Of a stretch of DNA of 25,060 nucleotides, positions 1 through 25,060 are shown piece by piece. This stretch comes from a virus. A program made the position numbers and the translations under genes. The notes beneath the pieces are model-generated. The model was not told the origin of the DNA and searched no databases. It saw only the letters and a program-made list of their open reading frames with translations. The DNA is taken from positions 1 through 25,060 of IMG/VR virus record IMGVR_UViG_3300050821_003246; one strand, given 5' to 3'. The first letter of the stretch is position 1; every line of letters starts with the position of its first letter.

Positions 1-216
1 AGCAGCGGTTACTCCTCCAAGGCAGCGAGCAGCGGGAACTACTCCACGGCAGCGAGCAGCGGGAACTACTCCAAGGCAGCGAGCAGCGGGGACTACTCCA
101 AGGCAGCGAGCAGCGGGGACTACTCCAAGGCAGCGAGCAGCGGGGACTACTCCAAGGCAGCGAGCAGCGGGGACTACTCCACGGCAGCGAGCAGCGGTTA
201 CTCCTCCACGGCGGAA
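1..216 (+). repeat. Eight tandem copies of a 27-bp coding repeat
   Basis: Eight contiguous 27-bp units begin at 1, 28, 55, 82, 109, 136, 163 and 190. Each starts AGCAGCGG and ends near CGGCAGCG; the last ends CGGCGGAA. They keep the reading frame and encode nine-residue units of the type SSGDYSKAA. Units differ mainly at GGT TAC/GGG AAC/GGG GAC and AAG/ACG. There are no spacers, so this is an internal protein repeat. The array starts before the window. Confidence 0.95.
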
Positions 217-411
217 GTAAAAGGCAAAGACGGAATTGCCATGGTCGCCGGAATCGGTGGTCAGGCAAGGGCTGGCGAAAACGGGTGTTTCGCATTGGCT
301 TATCTAAACAAAAAGAATCACCCGCGAATTTTGGTCGGGCACATTGGCGAAAAGGGCATCAAGGCTGACGTTTGGTACTGCGTGAAAAACGGGCGACTCG
401 CGAAAGCGTAA
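1..411 (+). CDS. C-terminal part of a repeat-containing phage protein
   Basis: The frame is open from base 1 and stops with TAA at 409-411, so the start lies outside the window. About 72 residues are nine-residue repeats of type SSG(D/N)YS(K/T)AA. The regular Gly, Ser and Ala spacing suggests a beta-roll or solenoid, which is an inference. A non-repeated tail of about 64 residues follows and includes GEKGIKADVWYCVKNG. From memory, phage and bacterial proteins of the DUF7666 type have the same layout: an N-terminal domain, Ser/Ala/Gly/Tyr repeats, then an EKGIKPDTWY-like end. The function of that family is not established. The next gene starts 12 bases downstream behind its own Shine-Dalgarno site. 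Confidence 0.7.
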   Translation, partial: SSGYSSKAASSGNYSTAASSGNYSKAASSGDYSKAASSGDYSKAASSGDYSKAASSGDYSTAASSGYSSTAEVKGKDGIAMVAGIGGQARAGENGCFALAYLNKKNHPRILVGHIGEKGIKADVWYCVKNGRLAKA

Positions 412-7134: not shown

Positions 7135-7394
7135 AAACGGCAATCTACATCCAGGAAGGGCTGACGCAGTTTGTGCTTACCCCTGAAACGGAGATCGACC
7201 GCAAGGTTTTGCAACAACTCGAAAGCGGTCAAGAACTACAAACGTTTCGGGGAGCCTTTTACAACTGCCAAGGCGGTTGGATGAGGCAAGAAGATGGCGA
7301 CGGCTATGAGCAATTTTCTTATGGCCGTGAGCCTAAAAGAGATTCGAGCCTGATTTTCGTGATGCGTCCGAAGTCGGCCGTGAAGGAAGTCTAA
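7131..7394 (+). CDS. Hypothetical protein (87 aa)
   Basis: GTG 7131 overlaps the upstream TGA and has a good Shine-Dalgarno site (GGAGGGGAG). The product looks like a small beta-rich protein: MKTAIYIQEGLTQFVLTPE at the start, then FRGAFYNCQGGWMRQEDGDG and SSLIFVMRP. There is one cysteine and no signal peptide or membrane segment. I do not recognise it. The stop TAA lies in a 12-bp variant of the stop-spanning palindrome. Confidence 0.65.
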   Translation: MKTAIYIQEGLTQFVLTPETEIDRKVLQQLESGQELQTFRGAFYNCQGGWMRQEDGDGYEQFSYGREPKRDSSLIFVMRPKSAVKEV

Positions 7395-8519: not shown

Positions 8520-8582
8520 ATGCATTACAAAAATGGACGTGAAGCAAAGAACGGGGACAAGGTTGTTCTCATCCCAAGCTAA
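8520..8582 (+). pseudogene. 20-codon N-terminal remnant of a small conserved phage protein
   Basis: ATG 8520 has a strong ribosome site (AAAGGAG) and starts MHYKNGREAKNGDKVVLIPS, then stops with TAA that overlaps the next ATG (TAATG). The first dozen residues match a remembered family of small phage proteins beginning (M)xYKNGREAKxGDxV, which are normally several times longer. The frame is also open from ATG 8472, but without a comparable ribosome site. It looks like the 5' end of such a gene joined to the 3' part of a radical SAM gene. It may now act only to couple translation into the next frame. The gap 8379-8519 has no other gene I can support. Confidence 0.55.
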
Positions 8583-9091
8583 TGGCACTTCCCGATTGGC
8601 CCGATTTCCCTGTAATCGCGGATAACAATTTGCTTGCCAATAGCGTTGCGCATTTCGACCGCGTGTGCGATCGCTTAGAAAAGCACGAATGGTCCGACTT
8701 CAATCAGGGGACGGACGCACGGCTCCTGACGGAGCATCATGCAGAACGGTTCGCGCGACTCAAAAACCCGACGATCCGCCTCGCGCTTGATTCGATGAGT
8801 TATGTCGAGGCGTGGGATCGCGCGCTAGAAAGACTTCTTCAGGCTGGCGTAGCCAAGCGGCATATTCGCACCTATGCGCTCATGGGATTCGGTACTTCGC
8901 CAGAGGAAAGCTGGAAAGTCTGCGAATACATTGAGTCAAAGAAAATCAAAGTGTTGCCGATGTGGTTCCATGAACTCACTGCTCTTGAGCGGAACATTGT
9001 GACCGATCGACAAAAGGAATTGGGCTGGAATGACTATGAGCGCCGGAAGTTGATGCAGTGGTTCTATCAACACAAAAAGGCGGTTGAATGA
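8582..9091 (+). CDS. C-terminal half of a radical SAM-like protein, lacking the CxxxCxxC motif
   Basis: 169 residues. FPVIADNNLLANSVAHFDRV followed by DFNQGTDARLL, then RLALDSMSYVEAW, and AGVAKRHIRTYALMGFGTSP reproduce the order of the second half of phage-type radical SAM proteins: 'DNNlLA..HFD', 'DFNQGlDaRLl', then 'YvLiGf.dtpee'. The first half, with the CxxxCxxC cluster that binds 4Fe-4S and SAM, is absent, and nothing upstream supplies it. Alone it should not do radical chemistry. The junction with the 20-codon remnant suggests a deletion. The frame itself is intact and has a normal end, so it may still be made, perhaps keeping a substrate-binding role. Confidence 0.7.
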   Translation: MALPDWPDFPVIADNNLLANSVAHFDRVCDRLEKHEWSDFNQGTDARLLTEHHAERFARLKNPTIRLALDSMSYVEAWDRALERLLQAGVAKRHIRTYALMGFGTSPEESWKVCEYIESKKIKVLPMWFHELTALERNIVTDRQKELGWNDYERRKLMQWFYQHKKAVE

Positions 9092-9196
9092 TGCGGTCGC
9101 CGAAAGCTGCTCAAGGTCCGAGGTGGGTGAGCCAGCAGTGGGCCAATAAAGAGAATTTTGGGAGGCTAGGGCAGCATTCCTCAAAGGAGCGGAGAA

Positions 9197-9548
9197 GTGA
9201 ACTTAAACGATTACGCAAAAGAGGTTCATGCGGCAAACGAGCGATGGTGGGTAGACATTCATACGGGCGAGCCGCTGAAGCGCAACTTCGGAGAATTGAT
9301 AGCTCTCTGCCATTCTGAGTTATCTGAAGCGTTAGAGGGCCATAGAAAAAATCTGCAAGACGACAAACTGCCTCACAGGAAGATGGGCCGAGGTCGAGCT
9401 TGCTGATTGCGTCATCCGCATTTTGGATATTTGCGAAGGGTTGGGCTATGACCTGGAAGGTGCCTACCGCGAGAAAATGGCATTTAACGCGCAGCGCGAG
9501 GACCACAAGAGAGAGCACAGATTACAACCTGGAGGGAAGGCGTATTGA
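9197..9548 (+). pseudogene. MazG-like nucleotide pyrophosphohydrolase, frameshifted
   Basis: GTG 9197 follows AAGGAGCGGAG. The first frame encodes VNLNDYAKEVHAANERWW and ELIALCHSELSEALEG, the first acidic helix of MazG-type enzymes, and then stops at 9406 shortly after HRKM. Skipping one G near 9386 (ATGGGCC read as ATGGCC) restores EVELADCVIRILDICEGLGY, the second metal-binding helix (ExxD), and an ending GGKAY with TGA 9546-9548. The joined protein would be 116 residues, a normal size for phage MazG-like proteins, which hydrolyse NTPs or dNTPs. The unshifted product lacks the second metal motif and should be inactive. A single-base error in the sequence is also possible. Confidence 0.7.
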
Positions 9549-16327: not shown

Positions 16328-16852
16328 ATGTCCGATGAGCAGAAACCGCTTGGCGACGAGCCAAAGCGGAAGAAGCTGACCTTGAAACAGAGCAGGTTGG
16401 TAGCGGCGCTTCCCAAGGCAAAGACGGCCGCAGCGGCAGCAATCGAAGCGGGATATAGCCCAAAAAATCCAGATCAATCCGCCTATCAGGCATTGAAGGC
16501 AATCGAGAAAACAATGCCTGAAATGATGATAGAGCTTGGACTGACGAATAAATCTCTAATTGAGAACCATTTAGTGCCACTGCTCAGAGCAGAAAGGGTT
16601 GGATTGTATGGAACCGTTCCGGATGGTCCCACGAGGCTAGGAGCCCTCAAGCTAGCCGGTGAGTGGAAGGGCGTAAATGCGCAGAGGGACGAAGAGGCTG
16701 AACGAGATCGAGTTCGATCCAAAACGTTTACCGTACGTTTGGTCGTCGCTGACGAAAGAAGAGCAATCCGACTTTCTAAGCTGCTCTCCCATAGTGGCCC
16801 CTCTGGTGTCGTCATTGACGTGGATGCGGGAGTGGACGGAAACGTGGGATGA
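16328..16852 (+). CDS. terS: Terminase small subunit
   Basis: 174 residues from ATG 16328, about 7 bases after GGGAGG; GTG 16322 is in frame but overlaps the ribosome site. The N-terminal half has the expected HTH: LTLKQSRLVAALPKAKTAAA, then AAIEAGYSPKNPDQSAYQAL and TMPEMMIELGLTNKSLIENH, the pattern of phage small terminases that bind the packaging site ('k...F...l....n...AaiaAGYs...A...a...l.np.v'). The large-subunit gene follows. The last 176 bases overlap it out of frame, and the product tail there (SKTFTVRLVVADERRAIRLS...) is unlike the family and may be run-on. The structured segment just upstream could be its binding site. Confidence 0.75.
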   Translation: MSDEQKPLGDEPKRKKLTLKQSRLVAALPKAKTAAAAAIEAGYSPKNPDQSAYQALKAIEKTMPEMMIELGLTNKSLIENHLVPLLRAERVGLYGTVPDGPTRLGALKLAGEWKGVNAQRDEEAERDRVRSKTFTVRLVVADERRAIRLSKLLSHSGPSGVVIDVDAGVDGNVG

Positions 16853-17408
16853 GCACGATGTCGTTCATCCCTACAAGCCATTCCCGGATTACGCGTACTT
16901 CGATGTGCTGCACACGGCGTTTCACCGAGAAGCGAAGCTCTTTGTAGAGAAGAGCAGGACGGTGATGGCAACGTGGTGGGCGTGCGGTGAGACGTTCCAT
17001 TACGTGATGACTCATCAGCCAGCCAGCTGCATCTACTGGTGCCCTGACCAGGACCGCGCCGAGAAGTGCATTGAATACGTCAAGGTGCTTTATAAGCGCC
17101 AGGATCCGAGACTACTCAGCTTATATCCGCTGCCACGGAAGAAGAAGACGGTCGAAGATCAATCGGTCTTCCGGTTCGAGCTTGGCGGTGGCGGGTGGTT
17201 CGAAGCACTGCCGGGCAAGAATCCAGACAAGATCAGGTCAGAGCATCCAACCATCGTGATGATGGATGAAGCGGCCTTTAACGAGAATGGCGCCGAAGCG
17301 TATGCAAACGCGATTTCGACTAGGCCAAAGAAGTTGCTGGCGATCAGTTCGGCCTGCCCGGGCTGGTTCTTTGACCTGATAGAGCCTGCGGTAGCGTGTG
17401 ACTTATGA
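16677..17408 (+). CDS. terL: Terminase large subunit, ATPase part (split gene)
   Basis: 243 residues from ATG 16677. The packaging ATPase is recognisable: a deviant Walker A, KSRTVMATWW (92-101), Walker B IVMMDEAA (193-200) with the catalytic Glu, and the coupling motif LLAISSACPGWF (220-231). These power DNA translocation into the capsid. The frame then ends with VACDL and TGA at 17406-17408, right where the linker to the nuclease domain should begin. The nuclease part follows as a separate gene in the same frame 114 bases later. It overlaps the small-subunit gene by 176 bases, longer than usual, and the protein starts plausibly with MRRGTKRLNEIEFDPKRL. Confidence 0.85.
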   Translation: MRRGTKRLNEIEFDPKRLPYVWSSLTKEEQSDFLSCSPIVAPLVSSLTWMREWTETWDEHDVVHPYKPFPDYAYFDVLHTAFHREAKLFVEKSRTVMATWWACGETFHYVMTHQPASCIYWCPDQDRAEKCIEYVKVLYKRQDPRLLSLYPLPRKKKTVEDQSVFRFELGGGGWFEALPGKNPDKIRSEHPTIVMMDEAAFNENGAEAYANAISTRPKKLLAISSACPGWFFDLIEPAVACDL

Positions 17409-17560
17409 ATTGCCAAGAGTGCGGCCATGTCCACAAAGAAGAGGATTTCTGTGGTTTCGTGTCCCCATGCGAATGTGGTTACGGCGACGATGTTTGTTGT
17501 TGCTGCGAAGAAAGCCGAATAAGTGAAAGGCCTATCAGCGAGAAGGATCCCGATCGGTAA
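17405..17560 (+). CDS. Cysteine-rich mini-protein inserted between the two terL parts
   Basis: ATG 17405 overlaps the TGA of the ATPase part (ATGA), and the frame runs 51 codons to TAA 17558-17560, overlapping the nuclease part by 38 bases. It begins MNCQECGHVHKEEDFCGF and continues SPCECGYGDDVCCCCEES. Nine cysteines in the first 34 residues (C3, C6, C16, C22, C24, C31-34), with two histidines, point to one or two bound metal ions. The reading frame is clearly coding-like and different from that of terL. It resembles small phage zinc-finger-like proteins in style only. Either it is a small selfish or accessory gene lodged in terL, or it has a role with the split enzyme. Confidence 0.65.
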   Translation: MNCQECGHVHKEEDFCGFVSPCECGYGDDVCCCCEESRISERPISEKDPDR

Positions 17561-18437
17561 GCCTGCCGCCGGAATTCAGGTGATTCGGCTGCATTACTCG
17601 GCTGACCCGCTGATGACACCCGACCGGGTGGCTGACCTAAAGAGCGCTTATCCCGACGTCACGATGTGGGACCGGGAGATGGAGATTGACCCCCACGCGA
17701 GGGGCGGTCAGAAGTGGTTCCCGGAGTTCGACGAAAGCATCCATTTTGTAAACGTTTCGATGGATAGCTGGAGTCCGGACATTTGGACTACGTGGTTGAT
17801 GTGTGATCCGCATCCCAGGCGGGCACATGCTTTTGTGTGGTTGATGGTCAACAAGTACGGCGATTTATTGGTGCCGTGGTCGTGGTGGCCGGAAGCAGTT
17901 AACAAAGAGCGCGAGCAAAAGAGACTCGGGCGCCTTGGATGTCAGGATTACGTCGATCGATTGCGGCTGGTTGAGAATGCGAGGCTGTTCCCGAAATCGT
18001 ACATCGATTTGATGGATCCCGCTGGCGCGAACTTTGACGCCGAAGAGGACGTCAATTATTTCGAGAAGTACCGCAAAGCAGGAATTATCTTTCGGCCAGC
18101 AAAGAAGAACAGGGAATACGCCGGTTACGACAAGATCAGCGATGCGTTGCGGCTAACTGATTGCGAGGGCGTGAAACGTCCCAGGCTGCGGATTGTACGC
18201 GGGAATGGCGACAACGACATTCTAGTGTCGCAGATCAAGGGACTGCGATTCAAGGAGCTGAAAGGCGTTGCCGCTCAGGAGAAAGATGCCCCTGGCGACC
18301 CCCGAGAGAAAGAACGGCACTTGGTCGATTGCTTGAGTTACGGGCTTTTGGATGGTCCGCGATTTATTGAACCGAAGCGCCGCGGTGAATCGTTTGAGAA
18401 CCATAACGTAGTGCGGGCCCATGGAGATAGACCCTAA
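17523..18437 (+). CDS. terL: Terminase large subunit, nuclease part (split gene)
   Basis: 304 residues from GTG 17523, immediately after an in-frame TAA. It begins KGLSARRIPIGKPAAGIQVI, then RLHYSADPLMTPDRVADLK and REMEIDPHARGGQKWFPEF, the normal TerL continuation. The RNase H-like nuclease that cuts the concatemer has its acidic residues in LMCDPHP (D95), DLMDPAG (D165) and KERHLVDCLSYGLL (D269). The ribosome site is weak (AAGAAAG), so expression may depend on translation from the overlapping Cys-rich ORF. The stop lies in ACCCTAAAGGGT, a relative of the stop palindrome. Confidence 0.85.
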   Translation: MKGLSARRIPIGKPAAGIQVIRLHYSADPLMTPDRVADLKSAYPDVTMWDREMEIDPHARGGQKWFPEFDESIHFVNVSMDSWSPDIWTTWLMCDPHPRRAHAFVWLMVNKYGDLLVPWSWWPEAVNKEREQKRLGRLGCQDYVDRLRLVENARLFPKSYIDLMDPAGANFDAEEDVNYFEKYRKAGIIFRPAKKNREYAGYDKISDALRLTDCEGVKRPRLRIVRGNGDNDILVSQIKGLRFKELKGVAAQEKDAPGDPREKERHLVDCLSYGLLDGPRFIEPKRRGESFENHNVVRAHGDRP

Positions 18438-20876: not shown

Positions 20877-23072
20877 ATGCCGGGAACCAATGTCGCTACT
20901 GATACCGTCACAACGACGGCCGGAACGACTCGCGCAGTAGACGACAATGCCTCGGAGATTCTAGAGCAGCGCCGCGCAAGCGAGCGCTACTTCATGAACA
21001 ATTTTTACGAGGAGTGGACCGAAGTTTATCGCAATATGAAGTGCCGGGTCGAGCCGCTGGTGCGGAAAAACGACCAAGGCCAAGAGGTTGAGGATCACGA
21101 TCGGTCAAATGTTTGCCTTCCCGACCATCACATGATGGTGCGGCGAGGGACGGCGCGGCTAACGCGGAACATGCCGAATTTAAGGCTCCGCGGCAAAGAT
21201 CAGCAAAAAGCCAATCTAACAGCTGCTCAGTTGATGTACCAGTGGGACCGTAGCGAGTCGCAACGGTCATTCCGCCGAATTGTGCGCTGCACGAAAGCCC
21301 TTGGAATCGGCTGGGGCAAGAGCTATTACGATAAGGTGCAGGTTACGCGGCGTTTTCGCCGGGTTACGCAGCGATTGACGCGCGAAGAGTTGATGCAGCA
21401 TCAGGGCGCGCCGCAAGACGAGATCGATGATGCGGTGGGGCAAAACGGGAATCAGTTAAGCGAAGCCGAGATCAGTCAAGCCGTTTCCGAGTACGGCGAT
21501 GCGGTTACGCTTGGTGTGAATGTCCTGAAGTACAACGGGCCGATGCTGGATTACGTATTCTCAGGGGACATTTTCCCGGAGCCGGGCTTTTACTCTGGAG
21601 CGCAAAGCGCGTATCTGATTGAAAACAGTATTCGAGATGAACAGTGGCTCGATTACTGGACGAAGCAGATGAGCGAGGATCCAGACACTGGTGAAGAGAC
21701 GCCAGTCGTCGATCCTAAAAAAGCGCAAGAGCTCATGGAGATGGCAGGGGACAGAAACTACCTCGACCAGAAGTCGATCAGCTTGCGCCGAATGATGCGC
21801 GAAGCGATTTCGGTCGCCGATCCGCTGAGTGCTGGCAAGCCAGTAAAGCCGCCGCGAAAGCGTTTCATGATCGATGAACGCCACTCGATTGTGAATGGGC
21901 GTTTGTGCATTGAGTATGTCGGAGAAGAGAGCCTTTACCTCGGCAAGCAATGGTATCCATGGGATACATACGGTCGGTACATTCACACGGACATGGTGCT
22001 GATGCCGGACCTGTTCGAAGGCGTTGGCGATTCGACGCCGCGGGTTACGCGCTTCGTGATGCAGTTGCGCAATGTCCGAATGAATCAGACAACGGACTTC
22101 ATCAACAATAAGTTGGTGCCGCTACTGAAGATGCTCGAAGGGTCGGATTACACCGATCAGGACATTGTGCGAACCGGTTTCGCTCGCCTACTCAAAGTTA
22201 AGAGTTTGGCAGAGTTGGAGTTTTTGCAAGATCCGATGATGCCGCCGGAAGCGTTTCAGGATACGGCGCAGCTCATTCGAGAGATGCAGCAAGCGGACCC
22301 AGCGCTGGCAGATTTCAATCCTGGCGATGAAGCGGTTCCGCAAGCTGGTAAGTTGGCTACAAGCCTGATTCTGCAGAAGAAGGCTGGCGACGACATTCTC
22401 GCCGACGAATTGAACGAACTCGGTCAATTCATTCGCACAGTGATGGAGAACTGGCTGGCGTTCAATCAGCAGGCCATGGAAGAGGCGCTCGAGATAAGTT
22501 CGGAAGGCGCGCCGAATCGATTGAAACAGGTGATTGAGGCGCTGAGTACTCGGACGCAGGGCGGGAATCCGAGAACGATCAAAATCGATCCGCAAGACAT
22601 TCAGGAAGAGTACGAGATTCTGCCCGAAGAGGGCTCAACGCTGGCGGATGATGACGAGTACCGCTTACAGAAGATTCAGCAGGGTTTCATGCTGTCACTT
22701 CAATGCCCAACGATATTGAATCCGAGGGCGTTTGCTGCGGCGCTCGTGCAGGCGATACCGGGGATTTCGCCCGAAGAGGCGATTATGCCGCCTCCGCCTC
22801 CGCCTCCGCCAACGCAGCCGCCGAAGGTAAGTTTCAACATTGCGGCGAAGTTCGAAGACCTAGCGCCTGATGTTCAGGAAGCGATTCTGAGCGGGGTTAA
22901 TCTGCCGAGTCATGGCACTGCGACGCTTGGTCTTGTGCATCATGGAGCAAAAGCGATTGAGAGCGTAGCAAGGGCCGCGAACGCCGCATCAGAACTAGAG
23001 AAGCCGGCGCAAGAGCCACCAGATGCGGAGTCACCTGGAATGAAAGCAGTTGAGACAAAGGTAGGGCAATGA
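20877..23072 (+). CDS. Portal protein (P22-like)
   Basis: 731 residues from ATG 20877, four bases after the previous stop and without a clear Shine-Dalgarno, so probably coupled. The length and order fit podovirus portals of the P22 type: RRASERYFMNNFYEEWTEVY near the start, SNVCLPDHHMMVRRGTARLT, and YVFSGDIFPEPGFYSG. A long central helical region follows (RFVMQLRNVRMNQTTDFINN). GDEAVPQAGKLATSLILQKK and FIRTVMENWLAFNQQAMEEA are further helices. Near the C-terminus is a run of eight prolines (638-645), then a helical tail. Portal dodecamers form the DNA entry channel and dock terminase, which is encoded upstream. Confidence 0.85.
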   Translation: MPGTNVATDTVTTTAGTTRAVDDNASEILEQRRASERYFMNNFYEEWTEVYRNMKCRVEPLVRKNDQGQEVEDHDRSNVCLPDHHMMVRRGTARLTRNMPNLRLRGKDQQKANLTAAQLMYQWDRSESQRSFRRIVRCTKALGIGWGKSYYDKVQVTRRFRRVTQRLTREELMQHQGAPQDEIDDAVGQNGNQLSEAEISQAVSEYGDAVTLGVNVLKYNGPMLDYVFSGDIFPEPGFYSGAQSAYLIENSIRDEQWLDYWTKQMSEDPDTGEETPVVDPKKAQELMEMAGDRNYLDQKSISLRRMMREAISVADPLSAGKPVKPPRKRFMIDERHSIVNGRLCIEYVGEESLYLGKQWYPWDTYGRYIHTDMVLMPDLFEGVGDSTPRVTRFVMQLRNVRMNQTTDFINNKLVPLLKMLEGSDYTDQDIVRTGFARLLKVKSLAELEFLQDPMMPPEAFQDTAQLIREMQQADPALADFNPGDEAVPQAGKLATSLILQKKAGDDILADELNELGQFIRTVMENWLAFNQQAMEEALEISSEGAPNRLKQVIEALSTRTQGGNPRTIKIDPQDIQEEYEILPEEGSTLADDDEYRLQKIQQGFMLSLQCPTILNPRAFAAALVQAIPGISPEEAIMPPPPPPPPTQPPKVSFNIAAKFEDLAPDVQEAILSGVNLPSHGTATLGLVHHGAKAIESVARAANAASELEKPAQEPPDAESPGMKAVETKVGQ

Positions 23073-23308
23073 GGCAGTCGAATCTCACGCTAACGGAAAA
23101 ACAGGAATTAAGCGGAGCGCTCGGCAATCAAGTGCTGATGGGAGCCATCCGCAAGGTATTCGAGACCGAAGCTACATTCTGGCACAACTTGTTGAGCAGT
23201 GAGGCGCAAAAGCCAGATCCTAACCCGACAGTACTTGTGCAGCATGCAATTCGAGAGGCTTCGGCATTGAGAGTTGAGAAGGTGTTGACGAGGGCAGCGG
23301 GCGTATGA
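23069..23308 (+). CDS. Hypothetical protein (79 aa) after the portal
   Basis: ATG 23069 overlaps the portal stop (ATGA). The product is helical throughout: LTLTEKQELSGALGNQVLMG, AIRKVFETEATFWHNLLSSE and VQHAIREASALRVEKVLTRA. There are no cysteines or membrane segments. Its size and place suggest a small head-completion or scaffold-associated protein, but there is no motif to prove it. The stop overlaps the next ATG (ATGA). Confidence 0.6.
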   Translation: MRQSNLTLTEKQELSGALGNQVLMGAIRKVFETEATFWHNLLSSEAQKPDPNPTVLVQHAIREASALRVEKVLTRAAGV

Positions 23309-24348
23309 AGATCGCGGTCTTCTACCCCGACGCACCTCGGACGGCGTGGAGCGCGACGCACGGCATCGAAAGCACGCTGCGCCGAATGGGACATCAAGTT
23401 GTCCCCGGCCGCGTGCCGGTCGACGTGGCAAATCCAGCTCCACACGTTTTCGAAGCGATTAAAGCGACCTTCCCGTCACTAGAGACACTTCGCGGCACGG
23501 ATGCGGTGATTCTGAGCGGCCCAGAACATATCGTTCCGTGGCTTGATCCGATTTATGGGCTATATGAGTGGAAGACGATCGCCGCGCCGAAGCTGGCGTG
23601 GTACCACGAATCGTTTTTCCGCGAAGACTACACGATTGATTTCGACACTCTTCAAGCGTGGTCGGACGAGCACTTCTTTCCGGCGATTCAGGATGCGGAG
23701 TTCCACGACCAAGAGTCGTTTGCGAAGGACCGGTCGCATTGGCTGCCGCTGGGCGTAGATACGAAGATTTTCCGAGCGATTCCATGGTTTGAAGGTGATT
23801 TAGTTATCACGAAGTATGGAACCGTTAGGAAGACATGGGACATTGGTTTCATCGGCTGGATGTATGAGAAGCGAGCCCGCTTTCTGAAAGCTCTGAGCCA
23901 GCACAATCATCCGCGCGTGCGTATCGGCGGGTGTTCCGTGACGGATTTGGGCGGTTTTCAGGCCGAGGATACGGCACGACGATTGGCGGACAATTATCGG
24001 CGAGTCGGCGTGTTCTTCAATCTGCCGGCGCTTAGCCAGTTGCTCGTATCTAAAGTTTATGAGGTGATGTCTTGCGGAACGTTTTTGCTAACGCCGATGT
24101 TGTCTGCGGACCGTGGTATCTCGAAGAACATGGACCCGTTCGAGTCTGGCCGCCATCTCGTCTATTACAGATCGAGCAACGTGCCGTTCGTAGCGCAACT
24201 GTTACGCGAATGGTCAAGCGAAGAAAAGGCCGAGGAGCGCGAGAAGATCGCAGCGACTGGATCAGCCGAGGTCCACAAGAATCATTCGCTCGAGAAGCGG
24301 CTTGAGGTTTTGCTCGCGAAGTGTGGAGTAAAGGAATTAGTGCAATGA
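23305..24348 (+). CDS. Glycosyltransferase, CgeB-like GT-B fold
   Basis: 347 residues from ATG 23305. MKIAVFYPDAPRTAW opens a Rossmann-like N-terminal domain. LPLGVDTKIFRAI (147-159) and WDIGFIGWMYEKRARFLKAL (178-197) lead into the second domain, where KVYEVMSCGTFLLTP (250-264) is the sugar-nucleotide binding segment with E253. FESGRHLVYYRS and a final helix with a 'g..ev...hs..kRle.ll' ending complete the pattern of CgeB-type family 1 glycosyltransferases. The enzyme would transfer a sugar to an unknown acceptor, possibly a virion protein, host surface glycan or modified DNA base. The position between portal and radical SAM genes is unusual. The gene contains a 10/11 match to the stop palindrome at 24049-24059. 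Confidence 0.8.
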   Translation: MKIAVFYPDAPRTAWSATHGIESTLRRMGHQVVPGRVPVDVANPAPHVFEAIKATFPSLETLRGTDAVILSGPEHIVPWLDPIYGLYEWKTIAAPKLAWYHESFFREDYTIDFDTLQAWSDEHFFPAIQDAEFHDQESFAKDRSHWLPLGVDTKIFRAIPWFEGDLVITKYGTVRKTWDIGFIGWMYEKRARFLKALSQHNHPRVRIGGCSVTDLGGFQAEDTARRLADNYRRVGVFFNLPALSQLLVSKVYEVMSCGTFLLTPMLSADRGISKNMDPFESGRHLVYYRSSNVPFVAQLLREWSSEEKAEEREKIAATGSAEVHKNHSLEKRLEVLLAKCGVKELVQ

Positions 24349-24518
24349 GGTATTCGCGCGTTTCGATAGCCTTCGCAGTATTCTGGGCACTTTTTCTAGG
24401 TGGATTGATTTTGATTTCCGTGAAGTGTTTTGGTTTCTGTGGTACGCGCGCTTCAATGTCTGGCTGGTGCGAGCAGATGTGTCTCAAGCGGAATTATTGC
24501 CCGCACGGTGGCGAATGA
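24345..24518 (+). CDS. Cysteine-rich single-span membrane peptide (57 aa)
   Basis: ATG 24345 overlaps the glycosyltransferase stop (ATGA). A basic start (MRYSR) leads to one membrane span (about 6-26: VSIAFAVFWALFLGGLILIS). After it comes a short tail with five cysteines (C28, C32, C42, C46, C52). The orientation would put the cysteine tail outside the membrane if the basic end stays in. The stop overlaps the radical SAM start (ATGA), so the three genes are probably translated together. The function is unknown. Confidence 0.6.
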   Translation: MRYSRVSIAFAVFWALFLGGLILISVKCFGFCGTRASMSGWCEQMCLKRNYCPHGGE

Positions 24519-25060
24519 GCGAGCGCCATTCGGAGCTTCGCGTCTTGCGGTGGAGCGACCGCATCCAAGACATTCTGGCCGGAAAGCAGCTGGGACCGAT
24601 TCGGGCCAACATCGACCTAACGAACCTTTGCAACCACCATTGCCCTTGGTGCGAACCGCTAGACTTCCGCAAAGCCACGATCGCAGAGAAAAGTCACACA
24701 CTGAGCCCCGAGACAGTCGCTGAGGTTATGTACGACCTGAAAGAAATGGATTGCCGAGCGATTCAGTTCTCGGGCGGTGGCGAGCCGACGGTTCATCCTG
24801 AGTTTGGCGCCATGCTCGTAATGGCGAAAATCCATGAATTCCGGACACTGGTTGTCACTAACGGCGGCATGCTTGATCGCTGGATTGGTCAGCTCGGGGA
24901 TTGCGCGGATCACGTTCGCATATCTCTTGATGCCTCGAACGAAGAAGAGCACCGGAAAATGCACGGCTCCAAGGAAAAGGAGTTCGAGCATGTTTGTGAA
25001 AATGTTCGGTGGCTGGTAAAGGAAAAAGTTGGAGAGAAGTGGCCCGAGGTCGGACTGACG
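24515..25060 (+). CDS. Radical SAM enzyme, 3' end beyond the window
   Basis: ATG 24515 overlaps the previous TGA, and the frame is open for 182 codons to the window edge. RANIDLTNLCNHHCPWCEPL holds the CxxxCxxC cluster motif (C39, C43, C46) that binds the 4Fe-4S cluster used with S-adenosylmethionine. QFSGGGEPTVHPEFG (84-98) is the GGE-type SAM-binding motif, and LVVTNGGML and VRISLDASNEEEHRKMHG follow as in this superfamily. The first half resembles MoaA/SPASM-type enzymes that modify peptides or small molecules. The substrate is unknown. It follows a glycosyltransferase and a cysteine-rich membrane peptide. A second, truncated radical SAM-like gene lies at 8582. Confidence 0.85.
   Translation, partial: MSERHSELRVLRWSDRIQDILAGKQLGPIRANIDLTNLCNHHCPWCEPLDFRKATIAEKSHTLSPETVAEVMYDLKEMDCRAIQFSGGGEPTVHPEFGAMLVMAKIHEFRTLVVTNGGMLDRWIGQLGDCADHVRISLDASNEEEHRKMHGSKEKEFEHVCENVRWLVKEKVGEKWPEVGLT

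Follow-up and report, generated by a model that had tools for sequence, protein, structure and literature searches.

What would lead a phage to place a glycosyltransferase (GT), a cysteine-rich membrane peptide and a radical SAM enzyme (rSAM) among its structural genes? The question is raised by the IMG/VR virus record IMGVR_UViG_3300050821_003246, all 25,060 bases of which make up the window analysed here. An earlier note had described the three genes as a coupled cassette after the portal, and had proposed for them a capsid or surface modification pathway or, alternatively, a phage-made modified peptide, with the cysteine-rich (Cys) peptide as a possible partner or substrate of the enzymes. 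The following features of the window bear on the question.

16677..17408, + strand: terminase large subunit, N-terminal part (phrog_2, E 1.1e-6), the anchor of the head/packaging module
17523-18437: terminase large subunit, C-terminal part, which together with 16677-17408 aligns to one 547-aa terminase in the relative L020
20877..23072, + strand: portal-position gene, 731 aa, upstream of the cassette, with 48-72% identity across relatives
23069..23308, + strand: small ORF of 79 aa, which in every case separates the portal-position gene from the GT
23305..24348, + strand: GT, 347 aa (PF13524, E 3.3e-11, 43.8 bits against a curated cut-off of 25)
24345..24518, + strand: membrane peptide of 57 aa with 5 Cys, single-pass (hydrophobic segment from residue 8), a coupled ORF
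24515..25060, + strand: rSAM, first 182 codons, with the motif CNHHCPWC (PF04055, E 1.6e-20, over cut-off)

The GT-rSAM pair in the head-gene region

The five ORFs from position 20877 onwards (portal-position gene, 79-aa ORF, GT, Cys peptide and rSAM) all lie on the + strand and are chained by 4-bp ATGA overlaps. The record ends inside the rSAM gene, which is still open at position 25060, and nothing lies beyond. We verified the coordinates of the overlaps that had been described between the GT, peptide and rSAM genes, and their location among structural genes is supported by the terminase and by the SU10-type capsid gene identified in L020 (PF17236, E 5e-37). The two enzyme types named earlier were likewise upheld by PF13524 and PF04055 matches over their cut-offs. 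The description "after the portal" stands as far as gene order is concerned, which is kept across the related records presented below, but the name "portal" for 20877..23072 reflects position and size only. The gene is without a match in PHROGs or Pfam, its protein has no match among phage records, and the portal model PF23899 was found in none of the eight clade records, whereas the same model does match the portal of the phage record L011. A profile comparison of the clade's portal-position gene with that L011 portal also gave no match.

Searches of viral contigs with the GT, rSAM and portal-position genes yielded seven related records (L002, L003, L004, L020, L021, L037 and L041), which form the clade together with the window record; an eighth relative, L025, breaks off near residue 90 of the GT. 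The gene order is the same in all seven relatives: portal-position gene, small ORF, GT and rSAM, then a scaffold-position gene and an SU10-type capsid gene. The GT-rSAM pair is thus kept in 7/7 other clade records, beyond what chance would give, and all eight records, including the window, have exactly one PF13524 gene (over cut-off in each) and exactly one PF04055 gene, adjacent to one another. GT homologs share 50-63% identity with the window GT in six distinct relatives, the cassette DNA of L021 being the same as that of L020 (identical over 2,042 bp). Weak homologs of the 79-aa ORF (30-40% identity) occupy the same place in L020, L003 and L041.

The search by the portal-position gene is independent of the cassette and returned nine records. 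Six of these continue past the portal-position gene, and in all six (L002, L003, L004, L020, L021 and L025) the GT comes next after the small ORF, with the rSAM next in turn in the five that are long enough. The other three (L022, L024 and L027) end at or inside the portal-position gene. L037 and L041 were added by the rSAM-led search, in which 80 of 460 relatives were kept.

A direct 4-bp overlap joins the GT and rSAM genes in four of the seven relatives (L002, L020, L021 and L037), while 26 nt separate them in L041 and unrelated small ORFs lie between them in L003 and L004. Judged by these gene arrangements, the GT and rSAM form a conserved and, by prediction, translationally coupled unit within the head-gene region. 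Clade members share one ancestor, and their synteny therefore counts as one event plus retention. The rSAM frame is interrupted in two of the eight clade records, in both cases between the second and third Cys codons of the CxxxCxxC motif and with an open frame in the part of the gene that follows: L002 has an in-frame TAA (~9195-9235) and L041 has a stop with a frame change (~7355-7385). The rSAM is therefore not indispensable. The 42% identity obtained for the L041 rSAM is an underestimate, one frame having been read through the interruption. That both breaks fall at the same place is an unexplained coincidence; the other clade copies are intact.

Using tblastn over the clade loci and reading of the slot between GT and rSAM, we found no copy of the Cys peptide in any of the seven relatives, all of which retain an rSAM gene. 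The slot is empty, spans 26 nt or holds unrelated small ORFs, and the peptide is present in the window record only. Its absence while the pair stays argues that it is not a partner or substrate of the GT and rSAM, and we reject it in that role; the Cys peptide is an accidental passenger ORF outside the conserved unit. The earlier note would have been refuted by genes that occur independently in relatives with no conserved order; this is what is seen for the peptide, whereas the order of GT and rSAM is conserved.

Two further genes commonly follow the pair. A class I methyltransferase is encoded behind the rSAM in L002, L004, L020, L021, L037 and L041, and a methyltransferase-like ORF sits elsewhere in L003. 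A small helical protein of 136-195 aa lies behind the rSAM in L002, L003, L004, L020, L021 and L041, and is not at that place in L037; its family was not found outside these six clade records and has no library match over cut-off. L020 also carries two short proteins with hydrophobic N-termini between the methyltransferase and the scaffold, and one might guess that they are acceptors.

Enzyme relatives and a possible virion glycan pathway

By its profile match, the GT is a member of the PF13524 family for which sugar transfer is predicted, and hydropathy gives it no membrane segment (max KD19 1.24). The window GT has no relative among the phage records or genome contigs searched, and PDB sequences returned one irrelevant weak match only. 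The predicted GT model, with a mean pLDDT of 44, is too poor for structure search.

The CxxxCxxC motif and PF04055 assign the window rSAM to the radical SAM superfamily. The full-length rSAM of L020 matches both PF04055 (E 1e-12) and the SPASM domain PF13186 (E 1.4e-10), and the clade enzyme is probably a radical SAM/SPASM enzyme, the SPASM domain being seen in relatives and the window record ending before it. No hydrophobic segment occurs in the rSAM, the methyltransferase or the helical protein. A single-sequence scan of viral contigs with the rSAM gave no match, and a search of genome contigs gave four weak loci (23-31% identity).

The nearest solved structures by sequence are DesII (E 2e-10) and SkfB (4e-8), followed by viperin-like enzymes and BlsE, while Foldseek ranks BlsE and DesII first for the rSAM model. 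VIA-align of that model (mean pLDDT 60) gave Z 19.5 for DesII (rmsd 3.9, 272 aligned), 18.8 for SkfB (rmsd 4.4, 258 aligned), 18.8 for SuiB (rmsd 4.6, 264 aligned) and 18.3 for BlsE (rmsd 3.8, 250 aligned). These values are practically tied, so the rSAM fold is compatible with sugar or peptide chemistry; we rejected the VIA-align ranking as a way to tell the two kinds of enzyme apart, as it does not separate them. DesII is a TDP-sugar deaminase and BlsE a cytosylglucuronate decarboxylase, and these two and BtrN act on sugar-like rings. In sequence and/or fold, few solved radical SAM enzymes come closer to the clade rSAM than these three, but the peptide enzymes SkfB and SuiB are nearly as close, and a sugar is a putative substrate of the clade enzyme.

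The explanation that we prefer, a tentative one that we place just short of probable, is that the pair works as consecutive enzymes made with the head proteins, the GT attaching a sugar to a virion protein and the rSAM then remodelling this sugar together with the methyltransferase. A nucleotide sugar supplied by the host would serve the soluble GT as donor, with a head or decoration protein as acceptor. Hydrogen abstraction by the radical SAM/SPASM enzyme, from the sugar or from the carrier that bears it, would then lead to oxidation, deamination, decarboxylation or rearrangement of the sugar in the style of DesII, BlsE or BtrN, after which the methyltransferase would cap the product. The modified glycan could potentially shield the particle or alter its surface, and the Cys peptide would have no role. 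The clade shows one feature of virion glycosylation systems, a GT gene within or beside the genes for the virion; the cassette has no known sugar-nucleotide gene. The capsid or surface modification pathway proposed earlier is accordingly consistent with the conservation and coupling of the pair in the head region, while the part given in it to the peptide is not borne out. If the virion-glycan model is right, a head protein should carry a specific mass.

A passage of PMC12619734 citing Freeman et al. (2023) describes phage-encoded virion glycosylation in mycobacteriophages, on head and tail proteins. The clade would share with that system a glycosylation of virion proteins encoded by the phage; unlike the mycobacteriophage system, the clade has a radical SAM/SPASM enzyme fixed beside the GT. 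The open-access literature yielded no account of cassettes that combine rSAM/SPASM and GT genes within the head modules of phages, which is weak evidence, as subscription papers are mostly outside it. Virion glycosylation itself is already known, in few phages, and the rSAM fixed to a GT in the head module may tentatively be regarded as the new part.

Recurrence in unrelated phages

Judging from gene order, unrelated phages have placed rSAM/SPASM and GT genes independently in head or tail modules. MW202801 (Podoviridae sp. ctQWt234) has the order MCP-hyp-rSAM-GT-PhyH-MTase-NodB-GT, followed by further virion genes. It resembles the clade in having an rSAM, a GT and a methyltransferase between head genes, and differs in its unrelated GTs, in an rSAM that lies ahead of the GT and in the extra PhyH and NodB-like genes. 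In L011, the portal is followed by an SU10-type MCP, a hyp gene, the rSAM, an ORF and two GT2 genes. Profile comparisons of the clade GT with candidates from L011, L028 and L030 gave no alignment, so that those GTs are to be taken as analogous, homology not being shown.

Further arrangements occur in L097 (MCP, small ORF, GT2, an ORF without a Pfam match, a transketolase-like ORF and rSAM, with each end overlapping the next start), in L042 (a baseplate gene separated by two ORFs from GT2 and rSAM) and in L062 (a head protein separated by three ORFs from an rSAM, which a methyltransferase-like ORF follows), where GT matches were not confirmed. In the L097 and L073 groups, an ORF for a transketolase-type thiamine enzyme directly before the rSAM, together with a partner-like ORF nearby, makes up a recurring three-gene unit.

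Wolbachia phage WO combines GT and rSAM activities in one 778-aa protein, the GT-radical SAM fusion UC3/WD0613 of the Undecim cluster, as described in a passage of PMC9203015. The rSAM half is homologous to the clade rSAM (hhalign probability 98.6), whereas the GT half is not alignable to the clade GT (probability 0.2), and the fusion lies in a sugar/transport island, unlike the clade pair in its head module.

Among the 80 viral rSAM relatives that were kept out of 460, seven belong to the clade and the other 73 fall into 23 groups at 60% identity. PF00535, the profile for family-2 GTs, occurs within 1 kb of the rSAM in 8 of the 23 dereplicated distant records, where random placement would give 2.5. 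Within 3 kb it occurs in 10 of 23 against 4.8 expected, and 0.2% of 2,000 simulations reach the observed count (p 0.002). This test placed the rSAM at random on the same record and counted over-cut-off matches only, with five weaker ones left out. A Pfam tally (PF00535 in 6/45 immediate neighbours of the distant rSAM genes vs 1/37 far genes) is suggestive only. By eye, many of the distant relatives among the 80 kept lie in large-phage sugar-gene clusters rather than in head modules. It is possible, if on the doubtful side, that head-module rSAM/SPASM-GT cassettes are a general and repeatedly invented phage strategy, in which radical chemistry would rewrite capsid-attached sugars to give glycans that nothing around recognises. 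Should the rSAM be fixed to a GT in the head modules of several lineages, phages would be altering the sugars of their virions chemically.

Other readings of the pair and neighbouring genes

Modification of the host surface and hypermodification of DNA are weaker rivals to the virion-glycan reading. In the former, which we consider unlikely, the enzymes would act late in infection and remodel a glycan on the host surface, as a form of superinfection exclusion. Distant viral rSAM relatives are often found beside sugar genes (by eye, in the set of 80 kept from 460), and in Synechococcus phage SynMITS9220M01 the rSAM, a methyltransferase and a GT adjoin heptose genes. The host surface is also where published opinion points in comparable cases: passages of PMC7029224, on the GTs of pelagimyophages, favour modification of the host O-chain/LPS or exopolysaccharide, and those of PMC9203015 favour exopolysaccharide or LPS for the UC3/WD0613 fusion. 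The clade pair, however, lies within the head operon, with the portal-position gene on one side and the scaffold on the other; its GT, rSAM and methyltransferase are without a membrane segment; and the GtrA flippase (PF04138) was found in 0/8 clade records compared with 7/14 control genomes. Serotype conversion of the Gtr type was rejected for the same lack of GtrA and of a hydrophobic segment in the GT.

An improbable alternative is that the target of the rSAM/SPASM enzyme is the side chain of an amino acid in a head protein, by peptide chemistry of the SuiB, SkfB and anSME kind, and that the GT glycosylates the product. It would agree with the SPASM domain of L020 and with a fold as close to SkfB and SuiB as to DesII and BlsE. 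The first cluster Cys, however, lies at about residue 39 and so leaves no room for an N-terminal RRE-like domain, and the PqqD/RRE family (PF05402) was found in 0/8 clade records against 3/14 control genomes, with the reservation that records may be incomplete.

Quite improbable, in our view, is DNA hypermodification, in which the GT and rSAM would decorate an already modified base ahead of packaging. DNA can be a target of phage GTs according to a passage of PMC12619734 citing Pyle et al. (2024), and the TET-associated GT family PF20691 matches 2/45 immediate neighbours of distant viral rSAM genes. Against this, a thymidylate-synthase homolog was detected in none of six clade records searched compared with 9/14 control genomes (records may be incomplete), and a C5-methylase in one of eight, as a partial match. 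PF12851 (TET/JBP) matched none of the eight clade records and no control genome either, and is therefore uninformative.

The pair could also be made up of moron-like metabolic genes that came by chance into an insertion-tolerant gap of the head module and have no function in the virion, which we judge distinctly improbable. The gap does carry other cargo, including an HNH-like gene (L002) and a cold-shock-like ORF (L041), both named by eye, as well as deoxyhypusine-synthase-like genes (L002-L004), and the interruption of the rSAM in 2/8 clade records would fit; yet this other cargo varies while the GT and rSAM are kept everywhere, coupled by a 4-bp overlap in 4/7 relatives. The phage-made modified peptide of the earlier note, a RiPP with the 57-aa Cys peptide as its precursor, is strongly disfavoured and barely credible: a coupled Cys-peptide ORF does lie directly ahead of the rSAM, but the precursor is conserved in 0/7 relatives that keep the rSAM, their slot holds unrelated ORFs or nothing, and PqqD/RRE is found in 0/8 clade records.

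The deoxyhypusine-synthase-family genes (PF01916, SpeY-like) of the gap have the following coordinates.

L002, 11762-12847
L003, 11240-12325
L004, 13600-14670

Such genes occur in eight IMG/VR records, namely these three, where they stand beside the GT-rSAM cassette, and L015-L019. Their best NCBIfam profile is "homospermidine biosynthesis protein", below cut-off, and the protein has no match among phage records. The lysine motif SGAVPNEKITWxK is kept in 7/8 of them, at what we take to be the catalytic place of the family.

Several observations concern the wider region. The terminase large subunit is encoded by two ORFs in the window record, L003, L004 and L041, and by one 547-aa ORF in L020/L021, and the portal-position gene of L037 (4210-6461) is split into two ORFs with a 4-bp overlap. 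A 169-aa ORF in the window (8582-9091) resembles the latter half of a TIM barrel of the radical SAM type, with a weak PF01261 match, and no CxxxCxxC half was seen upstream of it. At the start of the window (1-230), the N-terminal part of the first, open ORF is a tandem series of almost identical SSG(D/N)YSKAA-like repeats.
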